Assembly: GCA_021785195.1 (NCBI GenBank)
Contig: JAJYGC010000002.1
Location: 62,001-126,000, forward strand
Origin: Nitrospirota bacterium
GTDB lineage: Bacteria > Nitrospirota > Leptospirillia > Leptospirillales > Leptospirillaceae
DNA: 64,000 nucleotides
Direction of reading: 5' to 3'
The position numbers and the translations under genes are program-made. This document shows positions 30,116 through 45,089 of this stretch, piece after piece. Each line of letters starts with the position of its first letter. The stretch's first letter is position 1. The notes under the pieces were generated by a model, which saw only the letters and a program-made list of their open reading frames with translations, had not been told where the DNA came from and ran no database searches.

Positions 30116-30661
30116 TCAATTATTCTCTACGTGAAGGGTCCGTTCGGCGGATTTCAGGTCTTTCTGAAATTGTCCTGCCGCTTCTCCCAGGGATCGGGCA
30201 TAGACTTCAACCGCCGTCTTGAGGGCCTTTTCCCTTTTTGCATAGGCTCCGGAAATGGTCTTTGCATATCCCGCAACTGACTTTTTGATGAGCTGAGTTG
30301 CGTTCTGCTCCACTCCTCCCTCGCTCGCCGTCAGGCTGTCCCGGATCTGGTTGATCTTGATGGTGACCTTGGTGCTTGCGGCAGTGGCCTCCTGGACATA
30401 TTCCTGGTCTGCCTTATGCTTGGCATCAAGATAAAGTTTGCGCGCCTTGGCGGCAGCCATGTGGTATTTGGACAACGCCCTGGAAACCACCGAATCATAC
30501 CGGTTCGATTTCTCGATCAGTGTTTCTGAAGGGTCTCCTGCACCCCAGGCCGCCCGGGGAAGGATCGGATTTTGAAAAGATGGAAATATGGGTCCCGTTG
30601 CGAGCGATCCCGATGACATGATTGCCAGAATGAAAAGCCATTTTGCAAAACGAGAAGCCAT
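30116..30661 (-). CDS. Secreted helix-rich protein of unknown function
   Basis: 181 residues from the ATG at 30661, which has a strong AAGGAGG ribosome site; the open frame extends 64 codons upstream but that part looks non-coding. The N-terminus is a signal peptide (Arg, Lys, then LFILAIMSSGSLATG) with probable cleavage near AAWGA at about 43-45. The mature part is almost all helix with regular Ala, Lys, Gln and Glu spacing, probably a long coiled coil, with no cysteines. I do not recognise the family. A periplasmic or surface chaperone-like or structural role is possible but not supported. Confidence 0.75.
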   Translation of the reverse strand: MASRFAKWLFILAIMSSGSLATGPIFPSFQNPILPRAAWGAGDPSETLIEKSNRYDSVVSRALSKYHMAAAKARKLYLDAKHKADQEYVQEATAASTKVTIKINQIRDSLTASEGGVEQNATQLIKKSVAGYAKTISGAYAKREKALKTAVEVYARSLGEAAGQFQKDLKSAERTLHVENN

Positions 30662-30907
30662 TTTTTCCTCCTTTGACACCATTGGTCCCACTGTCACACC
30701 CCTTGAAGATTCTTCAAAGGGCCCCAGCTTCCGGGGATCCTGCGGATCCGGCCCATTTGCCGGACAGTGTGCTTGGCCAGACCCGCCCGAACCCTTCGGT
30801 ATCTTATGCCGCTTACGTTTTCCTGATGGGTTGATTGTATCATAACCCCTCAATTTCGGTTAAACCTTCCAGAATATGCCCGAAAGGATTGCCCCCCTGA
30901 CTTGGAA

Positions 30908-31573
30908 TCAGGAATAGGCAAACTCTTCCGGCAACACCGGTTCAAGATTGAGCGTCCTGAAAAGCTCTTCTGTTCTCTGATGGACGGTCTCCCACATTTC
31001 CTGGCGGGAAAGTCCCAGAATTTCCCAGTGGTCTTCAAAGTCCACAGGGAGACAGTGTTCAGCCCAGCGATAGAGTTGGGCAAGGTTCCCCGAAAGTCTT
31101 CGCGCGAGTTCCGGTCGTTCGCTGGGGGGGGTCTTTTCGACAATCTCTGCGAGTTCCCGCAGACCAAACGAAGTCTGGCGCTTTTCGTCCCGAATGGGGA
31201 TTTCAAGCGATGCTCTGGTGCCTTCATCAGCATGAGCAGACACTTTTTCCACCAGGGCGATCCCGATTCCTTCGATTCCGATTTGGAGACAGGAAAGAAA
31301 ATCGAACCACTCCAACTTGGAAAATGCATCGAGAAGCGCTTTTCGATGATGGGGTTGAATGGGAGAATGAAAAGGCATTCCCAGCTGATTCAGCCATTTT
31401 TCCTGGATCCGGAAGTGGATGCGTTCTTCTTCGACCTGATGGGCCAGTTCCATTTTGGCTTCGAGGGAAGGGGCTTTCGAAATGCGATCTGCACAGAGTT
31501 CAAGAGCGAGAAGATCGATGTCTGTGTATACCGTGAGCAATGTACCGATGGCGTTCCTGTAAAGAGGGTCCAT
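30908..31573 (-). CDS. Ferritin-like protein with altered second diiron motif
   Basis: 221 residues from the ATG at 31573, preceded by AAGGAGT. The pattern is that of a four-helix ferritin-like protein: a Glu in helix 1 (ALELC), the first ExxH as EERIH ending at His53, a further Glu near 101 in helix 3 (IEGIGIALVEK), and RDEKRQTSFG in helix 4. In most diiron relatives the last motif reads ExxH; here Gln133 stands where His is expected. Either metal binding is altered or the protein is a non-classical member. It lies 24 bases after the B12-radical SAM gene, on the same strand. Confidence 0.75.
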   Translation of the reverse strand: MDPLYRNAIGTLLTVYTDIDLLALELCADRISKAPSLEAKMELAHQVEEERIHFRIQEKWLNQLGMPFHSPIQPHHRKALLDAFSKLEWFDFLSCLQIGIEGIGIALVEKVSAHADEGTRASLEIPIRDEKRQTSFGLRELAEIVEKTPPSERPELARRLSGNLAQLYRWAEHCLPVDFEDHWEILGLSRQEMWETVHQRTEELFRTLNLEPVLPEEFAYS

Positions 31574-31597
31574 GGAATACTCCTTGTGCAAGCAGGG

Positions 31598-33031
31598 TTA
31601 ACGATCCCGGTAAATGCGATCCTTGAATGGCGCATACCGGAGGAGGTGCCAAAGCGGCCGTCTGTAGCCCGCCAGGCGGATGATGCGCTGGGTCAGGGGT
31701 TTCAGGGGGGTGACAAGACCTGGAAGGATCCAGTTCCCCCGGGGTTCGGCGAAGGAGAGCAACATGTGCATCAGAATGGGTTCAAGGGCCGGTTCGAGAT
31801 AGAAAACGGGATTGAGGTATTGTGATCGATGGGTGATGAGTCCCATCCCCTCAGCCATTTTGGCAAGTGGTGTGTCCGGGTAGATCCGAAGACCCGTCAT
31901 TGCGACGACAGCCGTAGGATGGCTTTCTTCGATTACCCTGCAAGTTTCCTGAACGGACTCCGGAGTCTCGCCAGGCCCTCCGAAGATCAGGGTGTGACAA
32001 AGGGCGAGTCCCAGCGAACGGCACCAATCCCCGACTGATTTCAGGTGGGATACGGAGAAACTTTTTCCCAACCCGGCCAAGACACCATTCTCCCCTGAGT
32101 CTGTTCCGAGTTCGATTCCATCGCACCCTGCCTGTTTCATTTTTTTGAGAAGGGGCAAAGTCATTCCTGCCGGGGTGGCATAACAGGACCAGTGGACGCG
32201 CAGGTTTTTTCGGATCAGTGCTTCGCATACTTCATCTGCATGGTCTGGCGGGGTGTTGAATATACTGTCGACAATGAAAAACGAATGGACTCCGAATGTG
32301 GAGACCATCATTTCCATTTCGTCGGCCACCTCGCCGGGAGGACGAAGACGAAAGGAAGAGCCTTCAAGAAGGGGATAGGTGCAGTATTTGCACCGGAAGG
32401 CGCACCCCCTTTTGGTTTGTATGCTGGCCATCCCTCCGATGCGCACATATCGTTTCAATCCCAAAAGGTCATGGGCCGGTGGATTCTTCCCTGCCAAGGC
32501 ATAGGGGGGATTCATCGATGGGGCGGGAGGGACTACGACCGGTGAGGTTCCCAGAGAGGGCCGATACACGATTCCGGGTATGCAGGCAACGGACTTATTG
32601 AATTCCAATGCGTCGAGAAGCATCGGGAAACTCTCTTCTCCCTCTCCTGAAATTCCAAAATCAGCACCCAGTTCATCAAGGAGCAGATCAGGCATCAGGG
32701 AAAAGGCTGAACCCCCGACGATAAGGGGAGGTTTCTCAGGGGAGAGGATGGCTCTGAGGTCCTGAACAAGCGTCTGATAAGAAGGAAGGTAGTTTTTGGT
32801 GAGGGGATAGGCCGCGTTATCCAGATTCCGGAGGGAAAGGGCGACCACATCAGGAGGATGATGCCGAATCTCCCGAAGAAGGACATCCCTCGGTCGGGAC
32901 TGCCCCAGCAGATCAATCACCCGTACATTGTGCCCGGCACGCCTGGCGCTTTCGGCCACATAGGCCGCGCCCAACGGGAAAACAGGATCCGGAAAGACTT
33001 CCCGGTTTGCGGAGATCAAGAGGAGATGCAC
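31598..33031 (-). CDS. B12-binding-domain radical SAM enzyme of unknown substrate
   Basis: 477 residues from a GTG at 33031 with AAGGAG seven bases before it. The N-terminal domain resembles a cobalamin-binding Rossmann fold (FPLGAAYVAESARRAGHNVRVIDLL, PLIVGGSAFSLMPD), without a visible DxHxxG His. The radical SAM core has Cys motif KRGCAFRCKYCTYP (CxxxCxxC), then FFIVDSIFNTPPDHADEVC, and GIELGTDSGENGVLAGLGKSFS, as in BchE-like enzymes. The C-terminal 80 residues are basic and hydrophobic. Substrate unknown. It is followed at once by the ferritin-like gene, so the pair may act on one compound. The chromosome also encodes corrin synthesis genes. Confidence 0.87.
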   Translation of the reverse strand: MHLLLISANREVFPDPVFPLGAAYVAESARRAGHNVRVIDLLGQSRPRDVLLREIRHHPPDVVALSLRNLDNAAYPLTKNYLPSYQTLVQDLRAILSPEKPPLIVGGSAFSLMPDLLLDELGADFGISGEGEESFPMLLDALEFNKSVACIPGIVYRPSLGTSPVVVPPAPSMNPPYALAGKNPPAHDLLGLKRYVRIGGMASIQTKRGCAFRCKYCTYPLLEGSSFRLRPPGEVADEMEMMVSTFGVHSFFIVDSIFNTPPDHADEVCEALIRKNLRVHWSCYATPAGMTLPLLKKMKQAGCDGIELGTDSGENGVLAGLGKSFSVSHLKSVGDWCRSLGLALCHTLIFGGPGETPESVQETCRVIEESHPTAVVAMTGLRIYPDTPLAKMAEGMGLITHRSQYLNPVFYLEPALEPILMHMLLSFAEPRGNWILPGLVTPLKPLTQRIIRLAGYRRPLWHLLRYAPFKDRIYRDR

Positions 33032-43558: not shown

Positions 43559-43595
43559 ATGAAGTAATTCATTTGTCATTGGATTGGGGTTGTCG

Positions 43596-45089
43596 ATGAA
43601 CAATGATTCCCCTGACAGCGAGTTTCCCTGGCAGTTGTCGCCCTCATCACCCGAAGATGAAGATCTGCAGTCCTTTGCCGACAAGCAAGGAGACGAGCGG
43701 TCGTCCGCGAATGGGGATGACCAGCTTTCCGCCCTCGGTGCCTACCTGAAAAAACTTCAGAAATCCCATCTCCTCACCGCGGAAGAGGAACAGTCCATTG
43801 CCCGCAGGATCCAGAAGGGTGATGAATCAGCCCGTCAGATGATGATCCAGTCCAATCTCAGGTTGGTTGTTTCGATTGCCAAACGGTACATCGGAAGGGG
43901 ACTGCTCCTTGAGGACCTGATCGAGGAGGGGAATCTGGGCCTGATGAAAGCGGTTTCCAAATTCGATCCCGAAAAGGGATTCCGCTTCAGCACCTATTCC
44001 TCGTGGTGGATCCGGCAATCCATCGAACGGGCAATCATCAATCAGGGGCACACGATTCGCCTTCCTGTTCACATGATGGAGAAGGTAAACTCCTATCTGA
44101 ACACGATGGAACGGATGATCTCCGATGGGGAGTTCCCTGTCCAGGAGGAAATTGCCCGGAAGAACAAATTGAAGTTGAAGGATATCCATGAAATACAAGC
44201 ACTTCTGAAAAATACGGTGTCCCTTGACACCCCGATCGGCGATCGGGAAGACAGCACGTTGAAGGACATTATCGTGGATAGTACGAATATTTCGCCCATC
44301 GTGTTGATTGAGGCCCGTGAAGAACGCCATTTGCTGATGGAAAGCCTTTCGATCCTGAAAGAGAAAGAACGCCGGGTTCTGGACATGCGGTTCGGGTTGG
44401 AAGGGGAAGGGAGCGAAGACGGGATGACCCTTGAGGCCATTGGCCAGAAATTGGGGGTCACCCGGGAACGGGTTCGCCAGATCGAGGGTTCGGCCCTGGC
44501 AAAGATGCGGGCATACATGGAAGATCCGAGCGAGTTTCGGAAAAAGCACAAATGGAGGGAGACGCATAGCATGGACTTTAATCGATGGGTACGCCAGATT
44601 TCAGATTTTCCGAAAAAAGGGATTCTCTTTTACGACCTGATGCCTCTTTTCGGGGAGCCCTCCGCATTTCACGCCTTGATTGATGCCATGGTTGAGTCGT
44701 ACCGGGAGATGGGGATCAGCAAGGTCGTGGGAATCGAAGCCCGGGGGTTCATTCTTGGCGCCCCAATCGCCGATCGCCTAAAAGCGGGATTTGTTCCGAT
44801 CCGGAAGAAGGGAAAGCTTCCGGGAGAGGTGCATGAGGTCAGTTACAGCCTTGAATATGGGACAGATACAATGGCGATACACCGTGGGGCCATCCTTCCG
44901 GGGGAACGGGTCCTTCTGGTGGATGATCTCCTCGCAACGGGTGGAACCGCCCGAGCCGCGGTTGACCTGATCCGGAAAGATGGGGGGCAGCTAGCGGGCA
45001 CCCAGTTTGTGGCGGAACTGATCGGACTCGGCGGTCGGGAAAGGCTGGGCCAGGAATCGGTTCGCTCCATCCTGACTTACGAGGTTTGA
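43596..45089 (+). CDS. In-frame fusion: RpoS-like sigma-70 factor joined to adenine phosphoribosyltransferase
   Basis: 497 residues from the ATG at 43596 (GGGG before it). Residues 1-45 are polar. About 46-315 are a group 2 sigma factor: region 1.2 (LGAYLKKLQKSHLLTAEEE), 2 (NLRLVVSIAKRY, DLIEEGNLGLMKAVSKFDPEKGFRFSTYSSWWIRQSIERAI), 3, and 4.2 (LEAIGQKLGVTRERVRQIEGSALAKM). After an 18-residue linker, residues 326-497 are a complete Apt: FPKKGILFYDL, KVVGIEARGFILGAPIA, VLLVDDLLATGGTARAAV. There is no stop between them. AGGGAG at 44556-44561, nine bases before the Apt Met codon (44571), could start Apt separately. Sigma selects promoters; Apt makes AMP from adenine and PRPP. Confidence 0.85.
   Translation: MNNDSPDSEFPWQLSPSSPEDEDLQSFADKQGDERSSANGDDQLSALGAYLKKLQKSHLLTAEEEQSIARRIQKGDESARQMMIQSNLRLVVSIAKRYIGRGLLLEDLIEEGNLGLMKAVSKFDPEKGFRFSTYSSWWIRQSIERAIINQGHTIRLPVHMMEKVNSYLNTMERMISDGEFPVQEEIARKNKLKLKDIHEIQALLKNTVSLDTPIGDREDSTLKDIIVDSTNISPIVLIEAREERHLLMESLSILKEKERRVLDMRFGLEGEGSEDGMTLEAIGQKLGVTRERVRQIEGSALAKMRAYMEDPSEFRKKHKWRETHSMDFNRWVRQISDFPKKGILFYDLMPLFGEPSAFHALIDAMVESYREMGISKVVGIEARGFILGAPIADRLKAGFVPIRKKGKLPGEVHEVSYSLEYGTDTMAIHRGAILPGERVLLVDDLLATGGTARAAVDLIRKDGGQLAGTQFVAELIGLGGRERLGQESVRSILTYEV

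Follow-up and report, generated by a model that had tools for sequence, protein, structure and literature searches.

In the 64,000-nucleotide stretch of Nitrospirota DNA analysed here (the window), which comes from a Leptospirillaceae MAG of 1.41 Mb and 64% completeness, the minus strand carries a B12-binding/radical SAM gene followed, 24 bases later, by a gene for a ferritin-like protein:

31598-33031, minus strand: B12-binding/radical SAM gene, 477 amino acids; GTG start at 33031, ribosome-binding site GGAAGGAG
31574-31597, minus strand: intergenic gap of 24 bases, including the ribosome-binding site of the ferritin-like gene
30908-31573, minus strand: ferritin-like gene, 221 amino acids; ATG start at 31573, ribosome-binding site AAGGAG

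The gene order was established from the open reading frames and the raw sequence, and the raw sequence also served to choose both starts by their ribosome-binding sites. The starts chosen in this way reproduce exactly the coordinates of the original prediction, which had placed two genes on the same strand, 24 bases apart. A terminator-like site was looked for in the 24-base gap, but none was seen. Another gene on the minus strand (30116-30853) begins 54 bases downstream of the pair and encodes a protein of 245 residues that is rich in lysine, probably has a signal peptide and matches no Pfam family. As this gene is common only to the source genome and its sister genome (G001), we excluded it from the unit.

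Both genes lie next to each other on the same strand in 14 of 21 Leptospirillaceae genomes, representing five genera, and none of the 21 carries just one gene of the pair. Two genomes counted among the paired ones (G009 and G010) have one of the genes truncated by a contig end. In five genomes, all of genus g2 (G008, G013, G014, G015 and G016), the site is empty of both genes, and DUF4010 and an NAD-binding gene directly adjoin; copies of the pair were searched for elsewhere in these five genomes, which are 69-88% complete, and none were found. Two genomes were left unscored, one with the equivalent site not recovered whole (G007) and one with contig breaks in the pair region (G020). Trees of two flanking genes unite the five empty-site genomes in one clade with full support, and the empty site is therefore attributable to a single event, either loss or gain, affecting both genes together.

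The surroundings of the pair vary by genus: RmuC and IlvD flank one side in the window and in G004, a CLC channel and DUF4010 are found in genus g2, and a cation-efflux gene in genus g3. That the two genes are kept across several neighbourhoods, and are absent jointly at the empty site, supports their being a conserved unit. Both are under purifying selection (dN/dS about 0.05-0.19), and evolutionary distances in one protein track those in the other (r 0.94), a correlation much of which shared descent alone would explain.

Searching 396 Nitrospirota genomes with a profile of the ferritin-like protein returned clear homologues in Leptospirillaceae and in three genomes of two other families (G051, G310 and G356), together with two further weak homologues. 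None of these five homologues outside Leptospirillaceae adjoins a relative of the radical enzyme. As far as we searched, within Nitrospirota, the pairing is a feature of Leptospirillaceae. The conserved pairing on which the original prediction hinged thus holds across the genera of this family, but not in other families of the phylum, where the ferritin-like homologues stand unpaired. A sequence scan of contigs matched only two Leptospirillum contigs, which says little on distant relatives, and an incomplete literature search found no paper describing such a pair.

The 477-residue protein matches the Pfam families B12-binding (1.3e-15) and Radical_SAM (2.6e-17), and the three cysteines of its CxxxCxxC motif (C210, C214 and C217) are invariant in our alignment. 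It therefore has both domains and the motif that characterise the B12-binding radical SAM superfamily, bearing out the cobalamin-type N-terminal domain and CxxxCxxC motif noticed earlier. Its best NCBIfam model is TIGR04072 (rSAM_ladder_B12, lipid biosynthesis B12-binding/radical SAM), with a borderline score of 360.2 bits against a cut-off of 360 (360 when the window protein is given a longer start). Among other Leptospirillaceae proteins, one lies above the cut-off (L044, 377.8 bits) and three below (L045, 354.5; L052, 340.2; L047, 334.9), so that three of the five proteins tested from this family fall short of it. The second-best model, BzaD (TIGR04385), reaches 213.2 bits against a cut-off of 450. 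BzaD is a B12 lower-ligand radical SAM enzyme, whereas the Leptospirillaceae gene is not in a lower-ligand operon. Our incomplete literature search found no paper naming TIGR04072. A structure model of the radical enzyme was set aside for its low quality (pLDDT 53.5).

Several of the enzyme's nearest relatives in the phylum (40-43% identity) sit in fatty-acid operons with FabD and FabG. These TIGR04072 copies from other Nitrospirota have the same architecture and match over the full length, including the C-terminal region; the Leptospirillaceae enzyme differs in scoring at or below the cut-off, in lying outside a fatty-acid operon, and in being partnered by a ferritin-like gene. Across the wider related group in Nitrospirota, acyl or polyketide genes are found within 5 kb of the radical enzyme at 14 of 23 loci, compared with none of four loci of distant paralogues. 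The neighbouring genes at the 14 loci are of several types, spread over several subgroups: FabD with ACP; ketosynthase with ACP and acyltransferase; type III PKS; FabF; and an LpxL-type acyltransferase. Within 5 kb of the pair itself, no homologue of FabD, ketosynthase, ACP, acyltransferase or PKS was found at the nine Leptospirillaceae loci, and the lipid assignment is consequently by family rather than by neighbourhood. The Leptospirillaceae enzymes form a clade whose closest sister is not well supported in the tree, and the genomes of this family also contain other B12/radical SAM paralogues.

An enzyme of this general kind has been proposed for unusual lipids before. Kuste2803 of the anammox bacterium Kuenenia, a B12/SAM radical enzyme encoded in a fatty-acid cluster, has been put forward in the literature as a candidate for ladderane synthesis (PMC2649909, PMC4790861), and Rattray and colleagues proposed that it acts in the cyclisation step of ladderane synthesis (PMC2649909); its similarity to the radical enzyme studied here is by published description only.

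Two further arrangements were seen among the Nitrospirota loci. In four genomes of one family (L135, L137, L138 and L140), a TIGR04072-group enzyme has a type III polyketide synthase-like gene close by. A different genome (G058; locus L131, 1124-11952) has a large cluster reminiscent of the aryl-polyene or ladderane type, made up of ketosynthases, ACP, an LpxL-type acyltransferase, a FabA-like protein and two radical SAM-like genes.

For the second protein, the ferritin-like layout proposed earlier agrees with the predicted structure, a helical ferritin-like bundle (pLDDT 78.8) modelled from three sequences and weakest at the metal helix (residues 128-133). The closest fold match to this model in the PDB is 3ez0, an uncharacterised ferritin-like protein, followed by aldehyde-deformylating oxygenase (ADO; TM about 0.63-0.75); a viral fold library gave no match. 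MiaE_2 (PF13794) is the only Pfam family whose gathering cut-off is passed, and this only marginally (25.6 against 25.2 bits, a margin of 0.4 bits obtained with a longer, 227-residue start). Compared with MiaE_2 proteins and 3ez0, the protein has an altered ligand, and we saw no link to tRNA. When the family profile was compared with PDB sequences, the top match was ADO, at a weak E value of 0.002 and with the ligand motifs in register. No ADO model matches the protein.

ADO binds fatty chains, and its metal ligands are E32, E60, H63, E115, E144 and H147 (PMC4286721). Transferring these positions predicts D20, E50, H53, E101, E130 and Q133 as the ligands of the ferritin-like protein, spaced as D20-X29-E50-X2-H53 and E101-X28-E130-X2-Q133. 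The six-ligand ADO pattern of two EX28-29EX2H motifs is therefore incomplete, its last histidine being replaced by Q133. Every paired copy aligned has glutamine at position 133, where ADO and each of the five unpaired relatives in the alignment have histidine. In ADO, H147 binds Fe2, the iron that takes the substrate head group, and the second metal site has therefore probably been altered in the paired copies, judging from the alignment. The change from histidine to glutamine coincides with the pairing, which is suggestive, although it represents a single evolutionary event. In fold, in length, in having its motifs in register and in its EX28-29EX2H-like spacing, the protein resembles cyanobacterial ADO. 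It differs from ADO in its low identity (14-19%), in the replacement of H147 by glutamine and of E32 by D20, and in its host family, which lacks acyl-ACP reductase: TIGR04058 found this enzyme in none of the 21 Leptospirillaceae genomes, but did find it in the control, Synechococcus elongatus. As the partner enzyme is absent, we rejected the ADO alkane pathway.

Two Nitrospirota genomes have a weak ferritin-like homologue that keeps the histidine (L083, 5434-8788; L084, 5893-9055). It sits in a conserved cluster with radical SAM-like and glycosyltransferase-like genes, as named by eye.

We tentatively favour the reading that the two genes form a functional unit whose products alter a fatty (acyl) chain in two successive steps, and give it a probability of roughly 0.4. 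The two genes would be co-transcribed, and their products would act on one compound as a two-step pathway. In the first step, the radical enzyme, drawing on SAM, a [4Fe-4S] cluster and a corrinoid, would methylate an unactivated carbon or form a C-C bond there. In the second, the ferritin-fold protein would act on that chain itself, or on what the first step has made of it, through a dimetal site in which one histidine has become glutamine, in a reaction that may be oxygen-dependent or otherwise metal-based. The acyl substrate is suggested by the relatives of both proteins; the order of the steps, the type of chemistry, the metal content and the sharing of a single compound are likewise our inferences.

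The original prediction had named a lipid or a tetrapyrrole as possible substrates, and the relatives of both proteins favour the former, while the tetrapyrrole found no support. Counting for a lipid are TIGR04072 as the best model, the 14 of 23 related loci with acyl or polyketide genes nearby, and the predicted ADO-like fold of the partner. Against an acyl chain count the nine loci without acyl genes, the borderline TIGR04072 scores, the missing ADO ligand and the lack of acyl-ACP reductase. It had also been proposed that the corrin genes of the window supply the cofactor. These genes belong to other operons, on the opposite strand, and four of the five genomes with an empty site also have a cobQ homologue; the corrin genes therefore serve other purposes too, and are not dedicated to the pair.

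A more ambitious version of the acyl-chain reading seems quite doubtful to us. It would have the pair make a membrane lipid or hydrocarbon not seen before, in the iron oxidisers of acid mines: the corrinoid radical enzyme would carry out alkylation or cyclisation of an acyl chain, and its ADO-like partner, whose dimetal site has a single histidine (D, E, H / E, E, Q), would then complete the product in a reaction new to this fold.

If acyl-chain modification is correct, the pair offers a compact, testable way into the lipid chemistry of extreme acidophiles. It would also offer a way to study the TIGR04072 group; the chemistry of these enzymes is unsettled despite the proposal of a B12/radical SAM enzyme of this description for ladderane lipids. 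The invariant difference in an iron ligand, confined to paired copies, poses a concrete structure-function question, and the clade that naturally lacks both genes provides a ready comparison.

The ferritin-like protein could instead be a helper, handling iron or scavenging oxygen and so protecting an oxygen-sensitive radical enzyme. The host is an aerobic iron oxidiser in iron-rich surroundings, a lifestyle in which such protection would make sense, and the Q133 substitution in every paired copy aligned also fits this role. However, the remaining five predicted ligands are retained, and strong purifying selection acts on the protein; moreover, among the B12/radical SAM paralogues in these genomes, this is the only one known here to have such a partner. 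On balance, we find a helper role unlikely.

Improbable to a similar degree is that the substrate is a terpenoid (such as a hopanoid) or another small molecule rather than an acyl chain. B12/radical SAM enzymes do also act on hopanoids (the HpnJ and HpnR models score 100 and 95 bits on the radical enzyme) and, in the case of BzaD (213 bits), on the lower ligand of corrinoids, and a predicted hopanoid cluster of Leptospirillum ferriphilum includes a B12-binding/radical SAM gene (PMC12654047). However, the HpnR, HpnJ and BzaD scores all fall well short of the cut-offs, and we recognised no terpenoid gene among the annotated neighbours of the pair.

By analogy with MiaB and MiaE, the pair might also modify tRNA, the radical SAM enzyme acting first and a MiaE-like hydroxylase second. 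The MiaE_2 match described above would fit, but its margin is slight and depends on the longer start. In addition, TIGR04072 gives the radical enzyme 360 bits and the MiaB/RimO model only 35 bits (cut-off 251), and the enzyme carries a B12-binding domain, which MiaB is not known to have. We regard a role in tRNA modification as very unlikely.

Finally, we consider it highly improbable that the pair produces the unusual haem found in cytochrome 579, an abundant cytochrome of iron respiration in Leptospirillum. In favour of this role, the haem is novel and fits none of the known types (PMC8126622), the pair occurs only in Leptospirillaceae among the genomes searched, and the radical enzyme is distantly related to BchE. 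Against it, the BchE score (89.8 bits) is far under its cut-off of 481, and each of the 21 genomes, all five with an empty site among them, has a candidate cytochrome (97-100% identity to the query). We recognised this candidate by its signal peptide and a CxxCH motif at mature residues 45-49, as published, with no published sequence used; the haem role is therefore disfavoured by the distribution, to the extent that motif position identifies the cytochrome. The candidate gene lies at G000:C20:15247-15798 and at loci L114, L116 and L120, and several genomes have a second copy.

Elsewhere in the window, a single open reading frame on the plus strand (43584-45089) encodes Sigma70 regions 2 and 4 and, after them, a phosphoribosyltransferase domain, an unusual combination provided that the frame is expressed as one protein.
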